From contig NZ_PYHR01000002.1 of assembly GCF_003121705.1 (NCBI RefSeq), forward strand, positions 2,232,001 through 2,296,000: a stretch of DNA of 64,000 nt. Direction: 5' to 3'. Position numbers and translations under genes: made by a program. Source of the stretch: Serinibacter arcticus. Its GTDB lineage: Bacteria > Actinomycetota > Actinomycetes > Actinomycetales > Beutenbergiaceae. Positions 44,351 to 54,043 of the stretch are shown in pieces. The number at the start of each line of letters is the position of its first letter. Positions within the stretch are counted from its first letter, which is position 1. Below the pieces are notes generated by a model. That model was given only the letters and a program-made list of their open reading frames with translations, had not been told where the DNA came from and made no database searches.

Positions 44351-45187
44351 ATGACCGAGGGTTCTCCCGCTGCGGCGGGTCGCGATGCCGCCGACGAGCC
44401 GCGGGTGCCCGTGTCGGCGAGTGCGCGACGGCGACGGCTGACGTACGAGGTGTGGCTCGTCCTCGGGGTGACGGTGCTGGGGAGCGTGACGCTGGCCGTC
44501 CTCAACCTGGTCGACCGCTACACGATCGACGTCCCGCTCGCGCAGCAGTCGACCTCGCTCAACCCGTCCCAGAACGAGCGGCCCTGGCTGGATCTCCTCT
44601 ACCAGCTGCGCCGCTACGCCTTCCTCGCGCTGCCGGCGCTGCTCGCGCTGTACCTGCTCTCGACCAACGGCCGCAGCGCGGTCCGGCGGATCGGGCTCGA
44701 CCTGACCCGACCGGGTCGCGACCTGCTGCAGGGCCTCGGGCTGGCCGCCGCGGTGGGCATCCCCGGGCTGGGGGTGTACGCGCTCGGCCGGGCGCTCGGC
44801 GTCACGGTCGAGGTCCGCCCCGCCACGCTCGACGCCTTCTGGTGGACGATCCCGGTACTCATCCTCGGAGCGCTCGCGAACGGCTTCCTCGAGGAGGTCG
44901 TGGTGGTGGGGTACCTCGCCGAACGGCTGAAGGACCTGCGGTGGGGCGTGGCGGCGATCATCCTCGCGAGCGCGATCCTGCGGGGCAGCTACCACCTCTA
45001 CCAGGGGCCGGGGATGGCGATCGGCAACGTCGCGATGGGCGTGCTGTTCGCGTGGTTCTACCTCGTGCCGTCGTGGGGACGGCGGGTGATGCCGCTCGTC
45101 GTCGCCCACACCGTCATCGACGTCGTGGCGTTCGTCGGATACTCCCTCCTGCCCGAGGCGCTGCTCACCGCCCTCGGCGTGGGGTGA
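44351..45187 (+). CDS. CPBP family intramembrane metalloprotease
   Basis: A 278-residue protein with about seven to eight membrane segments. The CPBP (CAAX protease/bacteriocin-processing) motifs are visible: motif 1 as FLEEVVVVGYLAERL (EE followed by a Gly-Tyr variant instead of the common Arg), motif 2 as RGSYHLYQG with His, and motif 3 as VVAHTVIDVVAF. These residues bind the catalytic zinc or metal. The substrate is unknown. It is followed at 41 bp by the pseudokinase-flippase gene and may be co-expressed with it. Confidence 0.85.
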   Translation: MTEGSPAAAGRDAADEPRVPVSASARRRRLTYEVWLVLGVTVLGSVTLAVLNLVDRYTIDVPLAQQSTSLNPSQNERPWLDLLYQLRRYAFLALPALLALYLLSTNGRSAVRRIGLDLTRPGRDLLQGLGLAAAVGIPGLGVYALGRALGVTVEVRPATLDAFWWTIPVLILGALANGFLEEVVVVGYLAERLKDLRWGVAAIILASAILRGSYHLYQGPGMAIGNVAMGVLFAWFYLVPSWGRRVMPLVVAHTVIDVVAFVGYSLLPEALLTALGVG

Positions 45188-45228: not shown

Positions 45229-48200
45229 GTGACCGACAGCCAGGGACCGGGTCCGGACGGTGCCACGTCCGACGTGCCCGGCTACCAGGCCACCGAACGC
45301 CTCGACCGCGCCGCTCTCGCCAGGGCCGCCGAGGCCGGCGCGCCGACTGAGCCCGGGACAGAGATCCCGGCGGCCGCAGCTCCCGCTGCTCCCCCGTCGA
45401 GGCCGGCCGAGCCCGCCCTGCCCGCAGCAACGACCGAGCCCGCCGCGCCCGCCGAGCCCGCGACGCCTGCCACACCGGTGACCCACGACACCGCCGAGAT
45501 CGCCGCCCGGCTCCCGACGCCCGCCCGTCGGAGCCTGTCGCCCACGCGTGAGGTCGAGATGGTCGACCTTCCCGTGTACCGGATCCGGCGGCCCGGTGAC
45601 CTCGTCACCGCCGTCGTCGCGTTTCTCGGGATCGCGCTCGTGCTCCTGCTCGCGGTCTTCGCCCACGCGACGACCGAGGGCGTGACCGAGGACGTCCAGA
45701 ACGCCATCCCCGGCACCCTGCAGAACATCCTGCTGGCGCCGGTGAACGTGCTCGAGGGCGTCGTGACGTTCCTGCTCCCGGTGATCATCGCCGTCGAGCG
45801 CCTGTTCCGCCGTCAGCCCCGGCTGGTGGGCGAGGCGATCCTCGCCTCGATCGCCGCCGCGGCCGTGACGTGGGGTGCGGTGTGGCTGCTGGACGCCGTC
45901 GGGCCCGACGTGCTGGTCGACGGGATCGCGACGATCGGCGGCACGACCCTGGTCCCGCTGATCGCCGGCCTCGCCGCCTTCCTCACGATCGTCGCCGCCA
46001 CCGACCGTCGCGGACTGGTCGCCTGGACCTGGAACCTGCTGTGGATCACGCTCGTGCTGCTGGTGCTGCGCGGCGGGATCTCCCTCCCCGGCGCGCTCGC
46101 CTCCGTGCTGCTCGGCCGCGTCGTCGGGCTGCTCGTGCGGTACGTGACCGGCGTCCTCGGCGACCGCGCCTACGGCGAGTCCCTCCTGCGGGCGCTGCGG
46201 CGCGCCGGGATCGACCCCGTGAACGTCACCCGCGTCGTCGACGGCAAGCCGCTCTCCGGCGTCGAGCCCGCCGTCCTGGTGACCGACGCCCCCATCGGCT
46301 ACCGCACCGAGTCCGACGCCGCGGCCGAGGCGGCCGACCCGACCGTGTGGCCCACGGCCGAGGACCCCGACCCGTCCGGCCCGACCGACCCACCCGCCCG
46401 GCCCACCCGGTCCGACGACCCGGTGGCTTTCCCGCACGCCACCTCCACCTCGCGCCTGACCACCCCGCGCCCGGCCGGGAAGGACGACTCTCGTCCCACC
46501 GCCACCTGGGAGTTCAGCGACGAGGACGCCCAGCGGCTGCGCCAGACGGCCGAGCGCCCCGCCGTGAAGCCCGAGAAGGCCGACCGGGCCGAGGGTCGCC
46601 CCGAGGTGCGCACCGCCTCCGCCGTCGTCGGTGAGGAGGAGGGCGAGAACCGTATCTACTCCGTGCGCGACGTCGAGGGCCGGGTGTGGGACGTCGGCGT
46701 GCTCGACGACGACCGCCAGGTGGTCGGCATGCTCGCCACCGCGTGGTCGGCGATCCGGCTCCGCGGCCTGCGACGCCGGACCGTCGTCTCCCTGCAGGCC
46801 TCCGTCGAGCGAGCGACGCTGCTGACCTACGCGGCCGAGGCCGCCGGCGTCCGCACCCCGCGACTGCGCGGACTCGCGACCGAGCAGGGCTCCGCCGTCC
46901 TCGTCTCGGAGCACGTGAGCGGCTCCCAGACGTTCGGCGACATCCAGACCCGACGCCTCACCGACCCCGTGCTCGACCGGATCTGGCGCCAGGTGCGGAC
47001 GGCGCACGACGCCGGCCTGGCCCACCGCGACCTCGACGAGACCACGATCCTCATCGACGGCGAGGACCGCGTCTGGCTGACCGGCTGGGTCGACGGCGAG
47101 ATCGCCTCGCCGTCGCTGGCGCGCCGCCTCGACCTGGCCCACGTTCTCGCGCTGCTGGCGCTGCGGGTCGGTTCCGAGCGCGCGATGGCCAGCGCGAACC
47201 GCAACCTCAACCAGTCGCAGCTGGCGTCGATCGCCCCGATCCTGCAGCCGGTCGCGCTCCCCTTCCGCACCCGCGCCGACGCGCGCCGCAACCGCACCGT
47301 GCTCAAGGAGGTGCAGGAGCTGCTCGTCCGGGTCATCCCGACGGCGGCCGACGTGCCCCCGATGCAGCTGCGGCGGTTCTCGGTCCGCACGATCATCACC
47401 GTCACCGTCGCGGCGGTCGCCGTCGTCGTGCTGGTCGGCTCGATCAACATCACCCAGATCGTCGACTACGTGCGCGACGCGAACCCCGTGTGGCTCGTGG
47501 CGGCCTTCCTGCTCGGGCTGTCGACCTACGTGGGCTCGGCGATGGGCCTCAAGGCCTTCTCCCCGTGACGCTCCCGCTGTGGCGGACCACGCTGGTCCAG
47601 ATCGCCGCCTCCGTGGTCGCGCTGGTCGCCCCGGCCGGGGTCGGACCCGCCGCGCTGAACCTGCGGTTCCTGCAGAAGCAGCGCCTGGACACCCCGATGG
47701 CGCTGGCGACGGTCGCGCTCGTGCAGATCTCGCAGTTCGTCACGACGATCCTGCTTCTGCTCGGCATCGCGCTGGTCACGGGCTCGTCCGGTGCGCTCGA
47801 CCAGCTGCCCTCCGGCGCGGTCATCATCGGCGTCGTCGTGCTGGTGGTGCTGGCCGGATCGGCTCTCGCGATCGGTCGCCTGCGCCGCTGGGTCTTCGCG
47901 AAGATCACGCCCACGCTCAAGCAGATCTGGCCCCGCCTGGTGTGGGTGGTCGGCCAGCCCGCCCGCCTGCTGATGGGCCTGCTCGGCAACGTCATCATGA
48001 CCGTCGGCTACATCGCCGCGTTCGGACTCACGCTGCACGCCTTCGGCGCGAGCGTCCCGCTGACCACGCTCGCGATCGTCTACCTGGTGAGCAACACCGC
48101 CGGGTCGGCCGTCCCGACCCCGGGTGGCGTCGGCGCCGTCGAGGGTGCGCTCACGGCAGGCCTGACCGCCGCGGGCGTGGCCACCGCCGCCTCGCTCGCC

Positions 48201-48293
48201 ACCGCCGTCGTCTTCCGTCTGCTGACGTTCTGGGGTCGGGTGCCCCTCGGCTGGTTCGCCCTCCGCTTCCTGCAGAAGCGCAATCTCGTCTAG
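45229..48293 (+). CDS. Pseudokinase fused to lysylphosphatidylglycerol synthase-type (MprF/UPF0104) flippase domain (frameshifted as sequenced)
   Basis: From GTG 45229: a Pro/Ala-rich N-terminus of about 110 residues, four or five membrane helices, an acidic linker, then a kinase-like domain. Its catalytic-loop equivalent is AHRDLDETTILI, while the DFG position reads LTGW, so it is probably inactive. The UPF0104/LPG-synthase membrane domain follows, from about residue 725. That domain is split: one frame stops at 47568 after MGLKAFSP, and the next continues VTLPLWRTTLVQIAASVVA through SNTAGSAVPTPGGVGAVEGA to 48293. One extra C at 47561-47564 would join them into about 1,021 residues. Alternatively a GTGA overlap makes two proteins. 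The likely role is envelope lipid or polymer flipping gated by the pseudokinase. Confidence 0.8.
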
Positions 48294-49590: not shown

Positions 49591-49645
49591 CTTGCCGGAA
49601 CCCGGGCGAGGGAGCACGCTAGACGTGGGGGCACGGAAGGACCAC

Positions 49646-50050
49646 ATGCACAAGCAATGGTCGGTTCGGGCAGGTGTTGACGGTGTGGCAGCCGCGCGGA
49701 GGCGCGCTGCCGACGCCTTCGCCGAGGCCGGACTGGGCAAGGAGGAGAGCCAGATCCTGGTTCTCCTGGTGAGCGAGCTCGTGACGAACGCGATCGTTCA
49801 CGCTCGACCACCGGTCGAGCTGTCGATCGACGTCGACCGGTGGCGCACACGCGTCGAGGTGTCGGACGCCGTCGGTCGGGTTCCGCACGCCCGCAGCGCC
49901 GACAGAGGCGCCTCCGGGGGTCGCGGCCTCGCGCTCGTCGAGCAGCTCTCCACCCAGTGGGGCACCACGATCGGCAGCCGCGGCAAGTCCGTCTGGCTCG
50001 AGCTGGCGCGCAGCGCCGACACCGCCAGGGTCCCGATCACCGCCGCCTGA
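49646..50050 (+). CDS. ATP-binding protein of the RsbW/HATPase_c_2 type (anti-sigma-like)
   Basis: The 134-residue single-domain protein has the GHKL fold. The N-box is LLVSELVTNAIVHA, with Glu44 and Asn48, and the G-boxes are VSDAVG and GGRGLALVEQLSTQWG. GGAAGGA precedes the ATG at 49646. Small HATPase_c_2 proteins of actinobacteria act as anti-sigma or protein kinases in partner-switching networks. Here the opposing gene, three bases away and convergent, encodes a SpoIIE phosphatase that could act in the same pathway. No anti-anti-sigma or sigma factor gene is visible in the window. Confidence 0.9.
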   Translation: MHKQWSVRAGVDGVAAARRRAADAFAEAGLGKEESQILVLLVSELVTNAIVHARPPVELSIDVDRWRTRVEVSDAVGRVPHARSADRGASGGRGLALVEQLSTQWGTTIGSRGKSVWLELARSADTARVPITAA

Positions 50051-50053
50051 GCG

Positions 50054-51295
50054 CTAGACCGGCAGCAGCGTCGTCGCGGTGAGCACGACGACGTCGTCGT
50101 CGCGCAGCTCCTTCGGCGCGAGGTGGGCGAGCAGCTCCTTCGGCGTGAGCAGACCCTCGCGCACCGCCATCGCCAGCCGGTCGATCCCGTGCGCCAGCGA
50201 CTCGGTCCGGCGCTCGATGAGACCGTCGGTGAACATCACGACCGTGTCGCCGGGGCCGAGGTCGAGCCAGCGGTCGGTCCGCGGGCACCCCGGGGTGAAG
50301 CCGAGCAGCGGGTCCGGTCGACCGCCCGGCACCTCGACCGTCCCGTCCGCCCGCGCGACCAGCGGGACGGGATGACCCGCCGAGGACCACAGCAGGCGCC
50401 GCGTGCCGGTGCCGCGATCCGGTTCGAGTCGCGCCAGCAGCGCCGTGCCCGAGGCCGCCAGGCCCGTCCCGATCGAGGCCTCGTCCAGCAGGCTGAGGAT
50501 CAGCGACGGCGGCTTGTCGTGCTCCCACCACAGGGCCCGCAGCATCGACCGCATCTGCCCCATGATCGCGGCGGCCTGGATGTCGTGCCCCGTGATGTCA
50601 CCGACGGCGAGCGCGATCCCGCCGTCCGCCAGCACCATCGCGTCGTACCAGTCACCGCCCACGTCCTCGGTGGCGACGGCGGGCGCGTAGACCGCGTCCA
50701 GCCGCACCCCGTCGGTGGCCGGCAGATCCGTGAGCATGGCCGCCTGCAGGGTGTGGGCGACCCCGCGCCGCTCCTCCAGCAGGGCCGAGGTGACGGCGTC
50801 GCTGCGCTCGGCGGCCTCGCGGGCCGCCTGGGCCTGCTCCTGCCGCTCGCGCAGCTGCACCTCGGTGGCGCACGCGGCCGCGAGGTCGCCGAGCACCTGG
50901 AGCGTCGCCTCGTCCCAGACGTGCGGGACGTAGTCGACGGCGCAGAGGGTGGCCACCAGCGTCCCCGACGAGCCGTGCACGGGGAAGCCCGCGTAGCTGA
51001 CCAGCCCGTAGTCGCGGACGGCGGGGTGGTCGGCCAGGCTCGGGTCGAGGCGGGCGTCGGAGACGGCGAGCGGCGCGTCGATCGCGATGACGCGCGTGCA
51101 CAGCGAGTGGTCGAGCGGGATCCAGCGCTGGTCCCTGAGGTTCGCCGGCAGGCCCACCGCCCCGGGGAAGACCTGGCGATCGCCCTCGACGAACCCGACC
51201 AGGGCGGTGGTCGCCCCCGTGAGCGCGCGGACGAGGCGGGCGTAGCGGTCGTACTCCGGCACCGGTCCGGCGGTGGCGACGTCCCCTGTCTGCAT
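50054..51295 (-). CDS. GAF domain SpoIIE-type (RsbU-like) protein phosphatase
   Basis: The 413-residue protein has an N-terminal GAF domain (about 20-150; QRWIPLDHSLCTRV, SYAGFPVHGSSG), a short coiled segment (QEQAQAAREAAERSD), and a PP2C/SpoIIE domain (about 185-413). Catalytic acidic residues appear in DVGGDWYDAMV, AVGDITGHD, MFTDGLIERR and DDDVVVL. It should dephosphorylate an anti-anti-sigma factor in response to a ligand or stress sensed by the GAF domain. It is convergent with the RsbW-like gene and divergent from the aldo/keto reductase gene. Confidence 0.93.
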   Translation of the reverse strand: MQTGDVATAGPVPEYDRYARLVRALTGATTALVGFVEGDRQVFPGAVGLPANLRDQRWIPLDHSLCTRVIAIDAPLAVSDARLDPSLADHPAVRDYGLVSYAGFPVHGSSGTLVATLCAVDYVPHVWDEATLQVLGDLAAACATEVQLRERQEQAQAAREAAERSDAVTSALLEERRGVAHTLQAAMLTDLPATDGVRLDAVYAPAVATEDVGGDWYDAMVLADGGIALAVGDITGHDIQAAAIMGQMRSMLRALWWEHDKPPSLILSLLDEASIGTGLAASGTALLARLEPDRGTGTRRLLWSSAGHPVPLVARADGTVEVPGGRPDPLLGFTPGCPRTDRWLDLGPGDTVVMFTDGLIERRTESLAHGIDRLAMAVREGLLTPKELLAHLAPKELRDDDVVVLTATTLLPV

Positions 51296-52480: not shown

Positions 52481-54043
52481 ATGCCCGAGATCCCCGGAGT
52501 CGACCTCGGCGAGGTCATCGGCCGGGGCGGCAACGCCGTCGTGTACGCGGGGGTGCAGCGCGCCGTGCAGCGGCCCGTCGCCGTCAAGATCGACTCCCGG
52601 GCGGTGAGCCAGGAGCGCAACCAGCGCCGGTTCGTGCGCGAGGCGACGGCGGCCGGGCGGATCTCGAGCCACCCGCACGTGGTGTCGCTCATCGACGCCG
52701 GCACCACCTCCGACGACCACCCCTACCTCGTCATGGAGCTGTGCGAGCGCGGCTCCCTGGCCGACCTGCTGCGCCGCGACGGCGCGCTGCCCGCCGTCGA
52801 CGCGCTCGACATCGGGATCGCCGTGACCGGGGCGCTCGCCGCCGCGCACGAGGCCGGCATCCTGCACCGCGACGTCAAGCCGGGCAACATCCTCATCGAC
52901 GCCTACGGCACGCCCCGCCTGTCGGACTTCGGGCTCGCGGCCCGGCAGATCCTCGGCGACGAGGCCTTCTCCGCCACGCTCGAGGCCCTCACCCCGGCCT
53001 ACGCGCCGCCCGAGGTCTTCACCGGAGGGGTGCCGACGACGCGGTCGGACGTCTGGTCGATGGGGGCGACCGTGTACGCGATGCTCGTCGGTGGAGCCCC
53101 GCGGCGGCGGCCCGACGGCGGATCCCTCCCCCTCACCGAGATCGTGGCCTCGCTCCCGGAGCGACTGCCCGCGCCCGACGTGCCCGGGGCCGACGTCGTG
53201 ATGCCGGTCCTGTGGCGGGCGACCGCCTACGACGCCGCGAACCGCCACGCCTCGGCCGCCGAGCTGCGGTCCGACCTGCAGCGCGTGCGCGCCCTGCTCG
53301 GCCCGTCGACCGGACACGTCGGCGGTCCCGAGGTGACGGTCGTGACGGCGCCGCCCGCGGCGCTCGAGCTCTCGTTGCGCGGGTCGCCCGTCGCCGCGTC
53401 GACGGCGCACGGCGCGGTCGCGCCCGGCGCCGTGGCGTCGGGCGCCGTGGCGTCCGGTGCGGCGGCGTCCCGGCGACCCCGACGCTGGTTGCCGATCGCC
53501 CTGGCCGCGAGCGCCCTCGTGCTCGGCGGCACCGTCGGCTCGCTCGCCACCCGCGCCGGTCTCGACGGCGCGGCCGGGGCCGGTGCCGCCGAGTCGTCGT
53601 CGAGCGCGGAGCCCGGCGCGACGCCGGTGAGCGGGACGGCGTCGGACGCGACGCCCGACGCGACGCCCGTGGCCGAGACCCCCGAGGCCCCCGCCCCGCC
53701 CGTGGACGCCTGCTGGGGCGGCCTGGTCGTCATCGGCGGCAACGTGTCGGCCGATCCCCGCTCCTGCACGGAGCCGCACCGCTGGGAGAGCTACGCGACG
53801 GGCTACCTCGACGGGACCACCGAGTCGGCGCGGGTCGACGATGTCGCGGCCGATCCCGCCGTCGTCGCCGCCTGCACGCTCGAGGCGCTCGGGACCTACC
53901 TCGGGGCGCCCGCCGACCCCGCCGCCTGGCGGCTCGATGTCGTGCCGCCGTCGGAGGCCGCCTTCCTCGCGGGCGACCGCGGCTTCTCCTGCATCGTCGC
54001 GCCGGTCGACGGCGCCGAGCGCACCTCCTCGATCCTGGGCTAG
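52481..54043 (+). CDS. PknB-type membrane serine/threonine protein kinase
   Basis: A 520-residue receptor-like kinase. The kinase domain spans 8-275, with the Gly loop IGRGGNAVVY, ATP-binding Lys36 (VAVKID), catalytic Asp131 (LHRDVKPGNIL), DFG at 149-151 and APPEV as the APE motif. An Ala/Gly/Ser linker and one membrane helix (WLPIALAASALVLGGTVGSL) follow. The outside C-terminal domain has paired Cys and CTEPHRWESYATGYL, resembling septum-formation domains. It lacks PASTA repeats. It may be reversed by the PP2C phosphatase at 48313. A true ligand is unknown. Confidence 0.93.
   Translation: MPEIPGVDLGEVIGRGGNAVVYAGVQRAVQRPVAVKIDSRAVSQERNQRRFVREATAAGRISSHPHVVSLIDAGTTSDDHPYLVMELCERGSLADLLRRDGALPAVDALDIGIAVTGALAAAHEAGILHRDVKPGNILIDAYGTPRLSDFGLAARQILGDEAFSATLEALTPAYAPPEVFTGGVPTTRSDVWSMGATVYAMLVGGAPRRRPDGGSLPLTEIVASLPERLPAPDVPGADVVMPVLWRATAYDAANRHASAAELRSDLQRVRALLGPSTGHVGGPEVTVVTAPPAALELSLRGSPVAASTAHGAVAPGAVASGAVASGAAASRRPRRWLPIALAASALVLGGTVGSLATRAGLDGAAGAGAAESSSSAEPGATPVSGTASDATPDATPVAETPEAPAPPVDACWGGLVVIGGNVSADPRSCTEPHRWESYATGYLDGTTESARVDDVAADPAVVAACTLEALGTYLGAPADPAAWRLDVVPPSEAAFLAGDRGFSCIVAPVDGAERTSSILG

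Follow-up and report, generated by a model that had tools for sequence, protein, structure and literature searches.

The closest functional analogue of the protein described here is MviN of mycobacteria and corynebacteria, an actinobacterial chain in which a degenerate kinase fold (the pseudokinase ActPs3) is attached to the C-terminus of the lipid II flippase MurJ. All three catalytic motifs of this pseudokinase are lost; PknB phosphorylates it, and FhaA is recruited through a phospho-Thr tail (PMC12599244, PMC10166564). A homologous flippase domain (PF03706) occurs in MprF, the bifunctional lysyl/alanyl-phosphatidylglycerol synthase/scramblase. The Pseudomonas aeruginosa protein needs no energy source to scramble a wide range of lipids. 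Other soluble domains, often lipid-modifying enzymes, are frequently found fused to the transport domain of MprF, and selectivity through proximity has been proposed (PMC11980842). Bacterial lipid scrambling was shown only recently, for MprF, and the regulation and cargo supply of such transporters are at stake. The nearest kinase folds are those of the WaaP/KdkA sugar kinases and of Bud32/PRPK, which give weak profile matches but differ from the proteins of the host class (host family, order and class refer to the taxonomic ranks of the source genome) in that the latter lack the Lys, the catalytic Asp and the metal-binding Asp. ActPs1, linked to a PQQ domain, and ActPs2, often with C-terminal transmembrane regions, are likewise actinobacterial pseudokinases.

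The locus at 45229-48293 of the window (the whole 64,000-nt stretch studied) belongs to a widespread, Actinomycetota-wide protein family. We read it, with a probability of about 0.55, as the Serinibacter member of this family, in which a dead kinase would act as a binding or docking module on a lipid-moving domain and the interruption of the gene would be a sequencing error. The earlier note had described the locus as one protein, which fails for the sequence as assembled: its 3065 nt are not divisible by three and hence span more than one reading frame, ORF A ends at a TGA, and the remainder lies in another frame (Table 1). ORF A encodes, in this order, a disordered N-terminus, an N-terminal helical domain, a linker, the kinase-like domain and the first flippase helices; its TGA is the product of a frameshift and falls inside the membrane domain. 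The second piece enters the Pfam family LPG_synthase_TM (PF03706) at model position 64 (91 bits against a cut-off of 33.4, E=1.2e-25), so the break lies within that domain. Searched against its own genome, ORF A gave a single, 100% match.

Table 1. Features of the locus and its flanking genes, in window coordinates
Feature	Position	Strand	Remarks
CAAX-protease-like (CPBP/Rce1-like) membrane protein	44351..45187	+	PF02517 E=1.8e-14
ORF A	45229..47568	+	GTG start, 779 aa, TGA stop at 47566-47568
N-terminal helical membrane domain, residues 107-340	45547..46248	+	ortholog model, hydropathy; ~5-6 hydrophobic helices
Kinase-like (pseudokinase) domain, residues 457-716	46597..47376	+	AlphaFold2 pLDDT 86, VIA Z, dN/dS
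Gly490 at the beta-3 ATP-anchoring Lys position	46696..46698	+	intact homologs outside the host class have Lys
HRD catalytic-loop triplet	47023..47031	+	His invariant in the protein family, Asp not
LTGW at the DFG position	47077..47088	+	Gly for Asp; Trp invariant in 79/79 close orthologs
Single missing base	47560..47568	+	TCCCCGTGA; relatives one base longer
Rest of the MprF-type flippase domain (PF03706)	47565..48293	+	other frame, 242 aa
PP2C-type phosphatase with hydrophobic C-terminal segment	48313..49590	+	adjacency conserved in host family only

Structure prediction recovered a kinase fold for the kinase-like region. The AlphaFold2 model built from the window sequence and 57 relatives (pTM 0.84) was closest, among solved folds searched with VIA, to PRPK/Bud32 (Z 15.9), WaaP (13.9), the CurKC kinase domain (13.1) and PknB (12.7). 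Z was at least 8 for 998 of the 999 aligned top chains, and all chains among the matches listed were of kinase fold; the solved pseudokinase of MviN was not among these listed matches, which is no proof of its absence. The ortholog modelled at full length (pLDDT 81) suggests that a portion of the kinase N-lobe precedes a long disordered linker (model range ~205-583), a feature of the model only; for the window protein, the beta-1 strand may be encoded ahead of the linker.

The membrane part that follows is a PF03706 (PplT) domain, matched by 45/45 orthologs and present as a single copy in the window genome, in the protein studied. Residues 625-926 of the intact ortholog model were superposed on the MprF transport domain 9j8s_A with Z 20.9 over 272 aligned residues (rmsd 4.4). 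No aminoacyl-phosphatidylglycerol synthase domain, C-terminal in bifunctional MprF, was detected in the Pfam scan of the 45 orthologs; the flippase domain forms the protein end, and NF033480 gave 38.8 bits against a cut-off of 600. Instead of the synthase, the present family has N-terminal helices of its own and a kinase-fold domain. These helices matched no Pfam family, and are seen in the ortholog model and the hydropathy profile. The N-terminal helices, kinase-like domain and MprF-type membrane domain named by the earlier note were confirmed.

The three catalytic positions of the kinase-like domain are lost across the host class. When the family profile was compared by hhalign with the active kinase encoded in the window, the alignment covered the central part only, so motif positions were fixed from intact homologs found in the phylum outside the host class. 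At these positions the window protein has Gly at 490 (beta-3 Lys), Asp at 601 (HRD Asp) and Gly at 619 (DFG Asp), which confirms that LTGW occupies the DFG site. The beta-3 Lys was found in 1 of 160 homologs of the host class, the HRD Asp in 15 and the DFG Asp in 23, and all three together in none; beta-3 Arg occurred in 3/160 and Asn at the HRD Asp position in 38/160, and the hallmarks of ActPs2 (beta-3 Arg, HRN, a very long activation-loop insert; PMC12599244) are absent here. The His of HRD and the alpha-F Asp were present in all 160 homologs. These two residues hold the kinase fold together, and their invariance alongside the loss of the catalytic residues points to a skeleton that was retained and a chemistry that is gone. 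From these alignments, the reading of the domain as a pseudokinase throughout the host class, set on an MprF-type lipid transport domain as had been proposed, is well supported. The retention of HRD, also put forward earlier, holds for the window protein but does not extend to its family, given the few homologs that keep its Asp; the nearest relative of the window protein reads HRE, and by this comparison the HRD of the window is incidental.

Compared with either congener, the two gene halves show purifying selection. The dN/dS values were 0.11/0.46 for the N-terminal domain, 0.09/0.37 for the kinase-like domain and, with S. arcticus, 0.05/0.53 for the flippase remainder; the ratios against the two congeners were ~0.25 and 0.17 for the kinase-like domain and ~0.10 and 0.13 for the downstream flippase part.

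The family extends well beyond Serinibacter, the closest named relative of the intact protein being Serinibacter arcticus K3-2. For searches of many genomes the flippase piece was used as query in preference to the long, low-complexity P0001, which had no match in the genome contigs. It matched 164/297 genomes of the order and 157/246 of the class, counts that take in some shorter PF03706 proteins, with frames mostly of 800-1000 codons, and members seem to occur in streptomycete- and mycobacterium-like genomes. Rv0585c of M. tuberculosis is a candidate relative. In the phylum outside the host class, homologs had similar length and identical domain order, and 5 of 20 carried the complete K/HRD/N/DFG set, so that on motif evidence the family would hold dead and apparently active members. 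In a tree of the flippase alone, with motif columns excluded, class members all fell in degenerate groups and three state changes were counted, gain and loss not being distinguished. The kinase-flippase fusions of these other classes are encoded at loci L252-L262; five have fully intact motifs, and some of these genomes have several paralogs. With dead-kinase and intact-kinase members on one scaffold, nature has set up an experiment on the control of lipid transporters by kinase domains, to which a query matching more than half of the sampled order and class genomes gives breadth.

In the preferred reading, the N-terminal membrane helices, a cytosolic kinase-fold domain and an MprF-type lipid translocation domain would form one chain. 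The membrane domain would carry a phospholipid, or some molecule linked to a lipid, from one leaflet to the other, an idea suggested by analogy with the scrambling activity of P. aeruginosa MprF and the frequent fusion of its transport domain to soluble domains. The dead kinase domain would phosphorylate nothing itself and would gate transport or recruit partners; this regulatory or binding role is proposed because the pseudokinase of MviN, whose flippase is of another family, recruits FhaA and is a substrate of PknB. In MviN the pseudokinase comes after a MurJ flippase, whereas here it comes before a PF03706 domain, and no MurJ flippase domain was present in the window protein or in 45 orthologs, which had only PF03706, after the kinase-like domain. 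What is new compared with MviN is therefore the other flippase family, the reversed order and the intact-kinase cousins. No paper describing a kinase-flippase fusion of the PF03706 type was found in the open-access literature, bioRxiv lying outside this scope (a preprint on the PplT domain may mention such fusions). The system had been called little described, which stands, within the literature covered, for this fusion but not for the principle, already known from MviN (PMC12599244, PMC10166564).

The intact members raise the tentative, though on balance unlikely, alternative that the ancestor of the kinase-fold domain was a WaaP/Kdo-kinase-like enzyme acting on lipid headgroups or lipid-linked sugars, so that cargo was modified first and flipped afterwards. 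This modification would persist in active members, whereas dead ones would only bind cargo, selecting substrates by proximity. Active-looking members indeed keep K/HRDLRxAN/DFG (VKVLG, HRDLRLANLFLD and DFG in the intact homolog L252), and Kdo/WaaP was the commonest kinase-type Pfam match of the relatives (8/45 orthologs at E up to 0.01, best 4.1e-7), the PF06293 score being 12.9 bits for the window protein and 25.7 for one intact homolog against a cut-off of 21.3. WaaP also ranks high by fold, and the fusions of MprF transport domains to lipid-modifying enzymes fit the same idea. PRPK/Bud32, a protein-kinase-like ATPase, nevertheless outscores WaaP, the Pkinase profile matches intact members too (E=3.9e-7), and no lipid-biosynthesis genes were seen adjoining them. 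A machine that modifies and then flips, in which an active kinase would phosphorylate a lipid or lipid-linked headgroup for translocation by the MprF-type domain and which would have decayed in Actinomycetes to a cargo-binding or gating module, is likewise doubtful.

The PP2C gene is a neighbour of this locus in the host family only. Its product, whose gene starts 19 bp downstream as the earlier note had stated, matched PP2C_2 (56 bits against a cut-off of 24; NF033484 190.9 against 230), and a second PP2C with 42% identity to it is encoded elsewhere in the genome. The phosphatase gene lay downstream on the same strand at 21/21 host-family loci (20 under a strict distance rule) but at that place in 0/40 other loci of the order, and one of the further loci outside the host family had a PP2C gene 5.5 kb off. 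PP2C linkage is thus firm within the host family and missing beyond it, and the phosphatase cannot belong to the general mechanism of the family. The earlier note had also suggested phospho-controlled lipid transport, for which the adjacency within the host family speaks and the 40 other loci do not. A version in which the neighbouring PP2C, together with a Ser/Thr kinase of the cell, governs transport through reversible phosphorylation of the protein looks unlikely: the hydrophobic C-terminal tail of the phosphatase, a Ser/Thr kinase gene at 52481-54043 and one mycobacterium-like locus, where the homolog and a kinase gene that includes a solute-binding domain are divergently oriented, would fit it, yet neither a phosphosite nor an FHA partner was identified. 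The CAAX-protease-like gene upstream is more widely conserved than the PP2C gene. Neighbour families of class- and phylum-level homologs showed no consistent functional theme.

The broken frame itself is most likely a homopolymer-type sequencing or assembly error, given that the base is missing only here and that two more C/G-run deletions were found in the same genome. DNA alignments took in S. arcticus, another congener and six more relatives, each of which has an extra base relative to the window at TCTC-CCCGTG. The open frame was intact, with 918-1120 codons, in all 21 other host-family genomes carrying the gene; two host-family genomes had no match for it, and both assemblies are fragmented. 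For the error survey, the window and 200 kb around it (~264 kb in total) were compared with stretches of the two congeners; since the split-gene scan picks up overlapping or extended ORFs in every genome as well, only junctions checked by eye and by DNA alignment were counted. Single-base C/G-run deletions were found in an MrpA-type antiporter gene (G000:C2 ~2170455; intact in 23/23 other host-family genomes) and in a ZnuB-like permease gene (G000:C2 ~2297540; intact in both congeners), and homopolymer-type errors are probably present in the assembly. A genuine break, either as a recent pseudogene or bypassed by -1 slippage during translation at TCC CCG TGA, is improbable: it is present in the assembly, and -1 re-pairing from CCG to CCC would bring the frame back, but the site is unique to the window sequence, both halves are strongly constrained, and the two further deletions lie close by. 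The organism probably makes the full-length protein. Two other explanations were ruled out: an old pseudogene, against which the purifying selection on both halves argues, and programmed -1 frameshifting, no relative sharing the site.

That the domain is still catalytic by an unusual mechanism is very improbable, for although SidJ is a kinase-fold pseudokinase with another enzymatic activity and newly conserved residues such as VLDxDRQ and W620 could make a new site, the three catalytic positions drift freely across the class, unlike those of a re-purposed active site.

Several other genes were observed around these loci. The stretch right after the PP2C gene (49592-51295) holds two genes that face each other on opposite strands, one for an RsbW-like ATPase (HATPase_c_2), which comes first, and one for a GAF-SpoIIE phosphatase; they are a likely anti-sigma/phosphatase signalling pair. 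The Ser/Thr kinase encoded at 52481-54043 has intact motifs and a weak C-terminal match to Septum_form (E=2.1e-5, just under the cut-off), and what looks like a truncated remnant at 43191-44354 matches DUF222 and HNH endonuclease weakly. At the mycobacterium-like locus (L203, 1434-5817), the Ser/Thr kinase gene divergent from the homolog carries SBP_bac_3. A UvrD-type helicase gene adjoins the homolog in a streptomycete-like genome (L200, 2-2749) and in an intact-kinase genome (L260, 5080-7236).
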